A DNA stretch of 64,000 bases from Burkholderia pyrrocinia (GTDB lineage: Bacteria > Pseudomonadota > Gammaproteobacteria > Burkholderiales > Burkholderiaceae). The notes below the pieces were generated by a model. That model made no database searches, had not been told where the DNA came from, and was given only the letters and a program-made list of their open reading frames with translations. Positions 5,569 to 7,204 of the stretch are shown here, in pieces. The translations under genes were made by a program, and so were the position numbers. The stretch spans positions 124,001 through 188,000 of the forward strand of contig NZ_CP094461.1 of NCBI RefSeq assembly GCF_022809715.1, written 5' to 3'. Within the stretch, counting starts at the first letter, position 1. The number at the start of each line of letters is the position of its first letter.

Positions 5569-5667
5569 ATGCAACTGAAATGGCTCGAAGATTTCGTCGA
5601 AGTCGCTCGCGCGGCTGCGGCGCGGGCCTGCCCGCCGGGTTTGACATCCCGTCGTCCCGGCCTTTAA
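5569..5667 (+). pseudogene. 5' remnant of a LysR-family regulator gene
   Basis: The first residues, MQLKWLEDFVEVAR, are those of a typical LysR regulator of the MDLKWLEDFV type, but LysR similarity ends at about codon 14 (near 5610), and a stop falls at 5665-5667. The helix-turn-helix and the whole effector domain are missing. The retron promoter begins at 5641, so insertion or replacement by the retron is the likely cause. I found no LysR 3' end beyond the reverse transcriptase gene. Confidence 0.6.
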
Positions 5668-5668
5668 A
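5641..5668 (+). promoter_or_regulatory. Sigma70-like promoter of the retron
   Basis: Perfect -35 TTGACA at 5641-5646, 16-base spacer and -10 TTTAAA at 5663-5668 (4 of 6 to TATAAT). The predicted start near 5674-5677 coincides with the start of the a1 repeat, where retron transcripts normally begin. Confidence 0.65.
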
Positions 5669-5676
5669 GTCCCGAC

Positions 5677-5842
5677 GCGGGGCGGTGGGTCAAGCACACG
5701 CCCGGAACAGGCAGCCGATGTTCCAGGACTACGGGGCTACCCCGTGGATGAGATCGACACCCCGATGCGTCGCAAGGGGATCCGTTGCGCGTCGCGCAAC
5801 GCAGCCCCTCGCAGTACCGGTCACGTTGACTCATCGTCCCGC
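5677..5842 (+). ncRNA. Retron msr-msd non-coding RNA
   Basis: In retrons this RNA is both template and primer: the reverse transcriptase copies the msd part and joins the cDNA to an internal guanosine by a 2'-5' bond. Seen here: a1 (GCGGGGCGGTGGGTCAA, 5677-5693) pairs along its full 17 bases with a2 (TTGACTCATCGTCCCGC, 5826-5842) using three G-U pairs and no mismatch. G5694, in the context AAGC directly after a1, is the expected branching base. msr hairpins: GGAACA (5704-5709) with TGTTCC (5719-5724), and an 8-pair stem 5729-5736/5740-5747 with loop CTA. The msd part holds a long imperfect stem-loop: base 5752-5756/5818-5822, GGGG 5776-5779 with CCCC 5805-5808, and a tip with CGTTGCGCG and CGCGCAACG (5783-5801). 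The predicted cDNA is about 70 bases. The RT start follows a2 by 12 bases. Confidence 0.82.
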
Positions 5843-5854
5843 CCATCTCTGGCT

Positions 5855-7204
5855 ATGCACTCATTCCTGCGCGAAACCGTCCGCGTGATTGCCGAAGCGA
5901 TGCTGGCCGGTTCGCCCGAACGCGGCGGCATCGTTGCGCGGATGGCGGTCGTACTCGGCGATGCGCCGCCGTGGGCGCACGAAACCGCGGATGCCGCGCT
6001 CGCGCGCTTCGGCTCGAACTGGGCCGACGCCGACATCGATGCGCTTGCGGCGGACCTGGCCGATGCGCCCGGGTTCGTGCGCGCGTGGTACGGCGACGAC
6101 CGGCCGGCAGTGATCCGCGTCGTGCGTCGGCCGCCGGTCCAGCAGCCGTTGCCGGCACCGCTTGCCGGCTGCGACGTGCCGCATTGGGCGACGCCCGGCG
6201 ATCTTGCCGCCTGGCTCGGCGTGAGCGTGCCGGAACTCGACTGGCTGTCCGACCACTGGCGCGTCGACGCACGCGGCGGCACGACGCCGCTGCATCACTA
6301 CACGTACGCTGCGATCGACAAGCGCAGCGGCGGGTGCCGCGTGGTCGAGATCCCGAAGGGACGGCTGCGCGAAGCGCAGCGCCGCATCCTGCACGGGCTG
6401 CTCGATCGCATTGCGCCGCACGGCGCGGTACACGGCTTTCGCAAGGGGCGCGGGATCGTGTCGTTTGCGGCGCCGCATGCGGATCGCGACGTCGTCGTCC
6501 GCTTCGATCTCGCGGATTTCTTCGTGTCGGTGCGCGCCGCGCGGGTCCATGCGCTGTTCGTCGCGCTCGGGTATCCGGCCGAAGTCGCGCGCACGCTCAC
6601 CGGGCTGTGCACCAACCGTGTGCCGTCGGCGCAGCTGCTCGCGCCGGACCTGCGCGAGCGGCTCGACTGGATCGCCCGGCAACGCTACCGCAACCGGCAC
6701 CTGCCGCAGGGCGCGCCGACGTCGCCGGCGCTGGCGAACCTGGGCGCATTCCGGTTCGACATGCGGCTCGCCGCGCTCGCGCGTTCGCTCGATGCGACCT
6801 ATACGCGCTATGCCGACGATCTCGCGTTTTCGGGCGGCGGCGCGCTCGCGCGCGAAGTCGAGCGGCTGCAGGTCAGGGTTGCCGCGATCGCGCTCGAGGA
6901 GGGCTTCGCGCTGCAACTGCGCAAGACCCGCGTAATGCGGCGCGGCACGCGACAGCAGCTGGCCGGCGTGGTCGTCAATCGTCATCCGAATCTGGCGCGC
7001 GATGAGTTCGATCTCCTGAAGGCCATCCTGACCAACTGCATCCGGCGCGGACCGGCGTCGCAGAATCGCGACGCACACCCGGATTTCCGCGCGCATCTCG
7101 CCGGACGCGTCGCGCATGCGGCCGCGCTGAACGCGGCGCGCGGCGCGAAGCTGCGCGCGCTGTTCGACCGGATCGCGTGGGATGCTCACGGCGTCGGCCG
7201 GTAA
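5855..7204 (+). CDS. Retron reverse transcriptase
   Basis: 449 aa. RNA-directed DNA polymerase that would make msDNA from the RNA just upstream. Motifs: KGRLREAQRRILHGLLDRI (about 168-186), HGFRKGRGIVSFAAPH (193-208), FDLADFF with a catalytic Asp (217-223), LPQGAPTSP (283-291), TRYADDLAFSG with the YADD active site (319-322), and LAGVVVNRHPNLARDE, the retron VTGLVVN-like thumb motif (369-384). The C-terminus GPASQNRDAHPDFRAHLAGR resembles myxobacterial retron enzymes (Mx162/Mx65 group). The first 140 or so residues precede the polymerase core and match nothing I recognise; an extension of this size is also known in the myxobacterial enzymes. The ATG at 5855 is chosen because it lies just after the a2 repeat; the frame is open upstream through the RNA gene. 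No toxin or effector gene is fused or adjacent. Confidence 0.9.
   Translation: MHSFLRETVRVIAEAMLAGSPERGGIVARMAVVLGDAPPWAHETADAALARFGSNWADADIDALAADLADAPGFVRAWYGDDRPAVIRVVRRPPVQQPLPAPLAGCDVPHWATPGDLAAWLGVSVPELDWLSDHWRVDARGGTTPLHHYTYAAIDKRSGGCRVVEIPKGRLREAQRRILHGLLDRIAPHGAVHGFRKGRGIVSFAAPHADRDVVVRFDLADFFVSVRAARVHALFVALGYPAEVARTLTGLCTNRVPSAQLLAPDLRERLDWIARQRYRNRHLPQGAPTSPALANLGAFRFDMRLAALARSLDATYTRYADDLAFSGGGALAREVERLQVRVAAIALEEGFALQLRKTRVMRRGTRQQLAGVVVNRHPNLARDEFDLLKAILTNCIRRGPASQNRDAHPDFRAHLAGRVAHAAALNAARGAKLRALFDRIAWDAHGVGR

Follow-up and report, generated by a model that had tools for sequence, protein, structure and literature searches.

A common Burkholderia retron of the PADLOC other/outgroup reverse transcriptase class, with a covarying RNA and no linked effector found

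The DNA product of retrons, multicopy single-stranded DNA (msDNA), was first found in myxobacteria in 1984, and 27 of 28 tested myxobacteria contain it, with an inheritance that is probably vertical (PMC6868368). The same review places the branching G of retrons directly 3' of the a1 end repeat, usually in the context TAGC and at times in CAGC, GAGC or others, and it states that, as of 2019, no retron of the Betaproteobacteria had been validated by experiment (PMC6868368). Retrons that have an effector are described as phage defence systems. Here we report a retron locus in a 64,000-nucleotide (nt) stretch of Burkholderia pyrrocinia DNA (the window; assembly GCF_022809715.1, contig NZ_CP094461.1, positions 124,001-188,000 of the forward strand), and argue that it is very probably a genuine and functional retron of two components, a structured RNA and a reverse transcriptase (RT). 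The evidence consists of covariation in the RNA, the class and predicted fold of the RT, the co-occurrence of RNA and RT, purifying selection, and the lack of a shared neighbour in the loci examined; the product would be an msDNA of ~65-70 nt.

Several described systems resemble this locus in part. Judged by published descriptions, it is like Mx162, Sa163 and Mx65 in the extended N-terminus of its RT and in its mostly vertical inheritance, and differs from them in the context of its candidate branching G, which is AAGC where theirs is CAGC or GAGC (PMC6868368). Type XIII retrons form the nearest other clade on our RT tree, with moderate support (92/81), yet they are a separate clade, and the RT_XIII profile is not the best match of the window RT (306.8 bits, residues 103-441 only, versus 479.5 bits for RT_other), so that the locus is not assigned to type XIII. 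The match to Retron-Eco1 (Ec86) is limited to model residues 92-445, and the Eco1 structure 7v9x holds an effector, whereas none was found at the window locus. The PADLOC profiles RT_other and RT_outgroup, in contrast, match the protein over nearly its whole length, N-terminal domain included; their entries name neither an effector nor an RNA.

A different retron-type RT is already in print for Burkholderia: gp44 of phage KS5. An annotated protein of 339 amino acids (aa) whose gene adjoins a regulator gene in a P2-like prophage (PMC3091744), it has been likened to type VI retrons (PMC8541194). It comes from the same genus as the window RT, whose 16 matches in phage records do not include it. 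Our literature search, which reached few subscription papers, found no study of the present retron, and the word 'retron' is absent from the main texts of papers on small RNAs, start sites and RNA-binding proteins of B. cenocepacia and the B. cepacia complex (PMC10175445, PMC5688073, PMC4603805, PMC10987360, PMC7074383). An earlier statement that this retron had not been studied agrees with that search for the locus itself, and must be qualified by gp44 for retron-type RTs of the genus.

The unit lies on the third replicon, at window positions 5641-7204 of the plus strand, and runs from a promoter through a structured RNA to the RT gene (positions throughout are those of the window). A preliminary description made from the bare sequence had given these same coordinates, which are correct, the RNA proper occupying about 5677-5842; it had also named the promoter, the paired RNA ends, the branching G and the RT motifs, all of which are present, the last as LPQGAPTSP, YADD and GVVVN. 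Percentages of paired cells refer to the RNA alignment introduced below.

5641..5670, plus strand: sigma-70-like promoter, -35 TTGACA (5641-5646), 18-nt spacer, -10-like TAAAGT (5665-5670), 10 of 12 matches
5677..5842, plus strand: retron RNA element, 166 nt, between promoter and RT
5677..5693, plus strand: a1 end repeat, 17 pairs with a2 (in this helix 96.5% of cells are paired and both sides have changed in 4 pairs)
5694, plus strand: candidate branching G and putative priming site, in CAAGC (C18 A19 A20 G21 C22) directly after a1, invariant in 47 of 47 sequences
5702..5727, plus strand: msr hairpin 1 (GGAACA..TGTTCC), helix 2 (95.2% paired, 4 pairs changed on both sides)
5729..5747, plus strand: msr hairpin 2 (ACGGGG-CUA-CCCCGU), helix 3 (100% paired, 2 pairs changed on both sides)
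5757..5825, plus strand: putative msd, placed by anatomy; DNA copying would begin at 5825 and run towards lower positions, to a far limit fixed only to within ~10 nt
5772..5812, plus strand: msd hairpin, made of a lower stem (5772-5779/5805-5812, including a mismatch) and an apical stem (5784-5790/5794-5800)
5826..5842, plus strand: a2 end repeat, pairing with 5677-5693
5855..7204, plus strand: retron reverse transcriptase (P0001), 449 aa, RVT_1 match, YADD at residues 319-322
5855..6157, plus strand: N-terminal helical domain and linker of the RT, residues 1-101, poorly conserved, no Pfam match

Between 5500 and 7600 there are two promoter-like sites, the other one on the minus strand, where 0.1 would be expected by chance. 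The TTGACA of the promoter is kept in all 47 aligned sequences, the window included, and over the 41 Burkholderia rows the mean majority is 1.00 in the -35 box versus 0.59 just upstream of it. The transcript would be expected to start at about 5677.

The RNA was examined in an alignment (A1) of 47 distinct upstream regions, comprising 41 from Burkholderia (RT identity of at least 73%), one from the more distant Burkholderia genome G050 and five from other genera of the family; the remaining 10 of 57 distinct upstream stretches were set aside as belonging to truncated, broken or very distant RTs. One locus with a single TGA (L067) was kept here for its RNA and excluded from the set used for substitution rates. 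The consensus structure, written by hand by the analyst, leaves 97.5% of cells paired, and 16 of its 47 pairs have changed on both sides, as compared with a mean of 4.8 in shuffled alignments; the covariation score is 0.125 versus 0.071, and none of 500 shuffles reaches the observed value on any of five measures. Sliding the pairing partners by one to three columns lowers the paired cells from 97.5% to 40-44%, and RNAalifold, run on the same alignment, returns 45 pairs in the same five helices, with the two outer pairs of hairpin 1 shifted by one column. The end stem has a weak point, since the pair of columns 9 and 168 is unpaired in 21 of the 47 sequences. Folded alone, the window RNA also joins its ends in a long stem, moderately above chance (z -1.9; 6 of 200 shuffles as good), so that it is the covariation, and not the energy of a single sequence, that takes the fold beyond chance.

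The two helices of the msd hairpin (4 and 5) are paired in 97.6% and 99.7% of cells, and the letters of its stems swap between species, as GGGG/CCCC, GGAG/CTCC or GAGC/GCTC. The 69-nt DNA complementary to the msd folds at z -2.9, with 1 of 200 shuffles as good. In a retron the msr is expected to be more conserved than the msd; over the 41 Burkholderia rows, conservation is 0.97 in a1 and a2 and 0.99 in msr hairpin 2, where 18 of 19 positions are invariant; the internal loop of the msd hairpin stands at 0.53-0.65 and the stretch past a2 at 0.71. A scan of the whole window against Rfam 15 at gathering thresholds gave no match, and one around the retron at loose thresholds gave matches at chance level only. 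These data also bear on the idea that the stretch is no structured RNA and instead encodes an N-terminal extension of the RT, which draws on a reading frame that in most relatives stays open upstream of the ATG (519 aa). We regard it as highly improbable, given that the base pairs covary and that the region varies in length by single bases (163-171 nt in the 47 sequences), which breaks the upstream frame.

That the enzyme belongs to the retron RTs is strongly supported by tree, PADLOC profile and predicted fold. On the tree it groups with RTs of the RT_outgroup type at a support of 100/99, at a wide distance from the group II intron RT that its genome also encodes, so that the phylogeny proposed in the preliminary description as a check places it among retron RTs and not with group II introns. 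Of the 30 loci returned by a locus search, 25 entered the tree, L093 joined it solely with the open piece that follows its stop codon, and the tree did not include L092 (the window), L101, L104 and L107. Labels came from a profile scan for 18 of the 30, as well as for L090 and L091, and seven others (L095, L098, L102, L105, L108, L114 and L118) were guessed from look-alikes. Among the PADLOC profiles, RT_other (PDLC02949) gives the 479.5 bits mentioned above and RT_outgroup (PDLC03740) 456.6 bits. In a structure comparison of the predicted RT fold the 14 best entries are all retron RTs; matches in BFVD are weak, with query TM scores of 0.30-0.49 among the 50 matches listed.

An RT of another class, from a group II intron, a diversity-generating retroelement or a defence-associated reverse transcriptase system, lying beside an unrelated RNA, would share the general RT fold, and the NCBIfam scan indeed places no retron model above its cut-off. 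The same scan gives 36.2 bits for group_II_RT_mat (cut-off 300) and 35.4 bits for Drt2 (cut-off 390), far under the retron models, and the tree, the ranking of folds and the joint travel of RNA and RT described below all speak for a retron; we put the chance of another class at next to nothing. The sole other RVT_1 match found in the window genome is a group II intron maturase (G000:C1:281981-282598, L077), which scores 422.9 with the group II maturase profile.

Retron RTs carry two specific regions, X and Y, with the letters NAXXH and VTG. In a protein alignment (A2) of 137 of 241 proteins, the AXXH of region X is invariant (A205 and H208 in 137 of 137) and the N is not kept, while region Y reads LAG in the window (residues 369-371, 6959-6967) where most relatives have VTG; residue 370 is T in 92 and A in 42 of the 137 proteins.

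Of 8000 candidates given a score, 7759 proved homologous to the RT at E <= 0.001. The lists of matches extend to the best 120 of them, which are 56-90% identical, and those with names are almost all from Burkholderia and Paraburkholderia, with one Janthinobacterium metagenome-assembled genome. Scanning GTDB contigs with a pattern turned up 19 named Burkholderia loci, one of them (L009) from strain NCTC13227, which we take to be strain J2315. Of 65 Burkholderia genomes, 47 have an RT match at E <= 0.001, and 41 have a full-length RT of at least 73% identity (the window is among them, as is G044 with an internal TGA), to which G050 adds a full-length RT at 56%. Some RT match is present in 76 of 299 genomes of the family sample, many of these being other RTs at low identity.

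The RNA travels with the enzyme. A covariance model of it (R1) finds it in 43 of the 65 Burkholderia genomes, namely the 41, G050 and G057, where the RT is divided between contigs, and has no match in G047 and G058, whose RTs are truncated. The RNA becomes rare in an order-wide sample of 399 genomes under stricter filters: four have it, one of them that of the window, and each of the other three has an adjoining RT of 46-54% identity. In a search of 28 loci R1 reached 62.8 bits at G491, while L094 and L095 scored 27.7-28.1 bits. R1 has no credible match at L096-L098, the loci compared for type XIII. The RT of L094 is 97% identical to a Yoonia protein among the matches listed, Yoonia being presumably an alphaproteobacterium, and its RNA region, folded independently, shows the same helices in the same order (z -2.0, matched by 5 of 200 shuffles). 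Three Paraburkholderia-type loci (L086, L087 and L088) have a full-length RNA (122-127 bits) with an RT that is split or has a stop.

The Yoonia-type RT and one from Tsukamurella (Actinomycetota, L163) both score highest on RT_other and RT_outgroup. The stretch before the Tsukamurella RT folds as a long end stem with msr-like and msd-like hairpins (z -3.0; 0 of 200 shuffles), and R1 does not recognise this RNA. This RT sits near polA and rpsA, and its best 120 relatives include many proteins of Gordonia, Dietzia, Williamsia and Nocardia; a vertically kept retron of Mycobacteriales is possible. None of the 16 RT matches in phage records covers 80% of the RT, and carriage of this class by phages is thus not supported.

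Over 30 genomes, distances between RTs correlate with those of gyrB at r 0.65, a value that none of 2000 permutations reached; the nearest neighbours by the two genes agree in only 10 of the 30, and for the RNA the correlation with gyrB is weak (r 0.14; 154 of 2000 permutations). Mostly vertical inheritance with exchange is a fair reading. The unit also gets lost, as several broken copies in Burkholderia and its family relatives indicate. Together with the location on the third replicon, in the window genome as in the named species, these broken copies are what would be expected of a selfish or decaying relic that hitch-hikes without function on a presumably dispensable replicon. We consider a relic improbable. 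The median ratio of nonsynonymous to synonymous substitution rates (dN/dS) of the RT gene is 0.28 in 40 comparisons, and it falls to 0.18 in the RT domain (residues 146-400) versus 0.50 for residues 1-110; in addition, RNA pairs have changed on both sides, conservation has sharp borders at the promoter and at a2, and the unit is intact although a flanking LysR gene has been lost up to 30 nt before the promoter.

The locus is a complete retron in the classical sense of an RT with its msr-msd unit, as had been claimed, and falls short of the tripartite definition in that no effector was found. An effector is present in several solved retron complexes, by the titles of their structures, and 18 of the 19 named Burkholderia loci have a gene of the H-NS family at ~1.6 kb from the start of the RT, usually with MFS and SLOG-family genes next. 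A tripartite defence system, with its effector elsewhere in the genome or in an unrecognised neighbour such as this downstream H-NS-family gene, is accordingly the most serious of the alternatives, though we think it rather unlikely. The gene setting differs in other Burkholderia and in Paraburkholderia-type loci: among 23 loci of varied settings, no family of open reading frames (of at least 90 aa, in the first 40 clusters), frames of the RT locus aside, occurs in more than six loci, and the few families shared between settings vary widely in distance and strand. Comparison of 17 loci over 1.2 kb of downstream and about 1.3 kb of upstream flank revealed no DNA similarity across settings, nine neighbours gave no match to a defence profile at E <= 1e-5, and in two genomes (G032 and G034; L078 and L079) about 8 kb separate the RT from the H-NS-family gene. 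The H-NS-family gene was rejected as effector, and its association put down to shared ancestry of the locus, because no match to it turned up in the other settings. Only promoter, RNA and RT are common across settings, so that no linked effector gene is indicated, and neither such a gene nor a fused effector domain was found by neighbour families, flanking DNA, defence profiles or a Pfam search of residues 1-113 (no family at E <= 0.01). The class to which this two-component retron belongs is one that PADLOC names only as other or outgroup, that is common in Burkholderia, and for which no linked effector was found.

The N-terminal domain of the RT is predicted to form five helices across residues 5-79, and it evolves fast, as the dN/dS of 0.50 for residues 1-110 shows. 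Before residue 100 only three positions reach 85% identity in the 137 proteins, which argues against an enzyme active site there. Structures listed in the fold comparison mostly cover residues 102-449, and none reaches residues 1-91. The RT_outgroup profile covers the N-terminus from residue 12, which makes the domain a trait of the class.

We infer transcription start, branching, msDNA length and RNase H processing as follows. One promoter would give a transcript from near 5677 that carries the msr-msd RNA and then the RT message; the a1/a2 stem would present G5694, and the RT, bound to the msr hairpins, would prime on the 2'-OH of this G and copy the msd from about 5825 to about 5757. Removal of most of the template by host RNase H would leave a branched RNA-DNA molecule with a DNA hairpin of ~65-70 nt. 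As to function, phage sensing or defence is the likeliest, the part of an effector being played by the N-terminal helical domain that the RT itself carries or by a partner that is not linked. A bolder proposal, which we offer as a tentative possibility, is an old effector-less class that spans Burkholderiales, a Yoonia-type alphaproteobacterium and probably Mycobacteriales, in which a single protein does both: the RT makes msDNA and its N-terminal domain senses or executes. If so, Burkholderia keeps a nearly genus-wide, single-protein msDNA system of immunity or regulation with no separate toxin. The locus offers a common retron in a genus with many sequenced species, an RNA with covariation behind its fold, and predictions that are specific as to branching G, DNA length and start site; it also supplies a covariance model, reaching from Burkholderia to the Yoonia-type relative, for an RNA that has no Rfam match.

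Some further observations concern the borders of the unit. In B. pyrrocinia LWK2, too, other genes follow the RT. In G032, a 69-nt fragment at the far end of the ~8 kb stretch matches RT residues 427-449 at 78%, as if the 3' end of the RT gene had been an insertion site. On the upstream side, the start of a LysR regulator gene occupies 5569-5610 and is cut off 30 nt before the retron promoter; a similar stub is present in LWK2 (L132), and a longer LysR start lies upstream of the retron, or of what remains of the retron, in eight other loci. A deletion at the window's stub apparently ended right before the retron.
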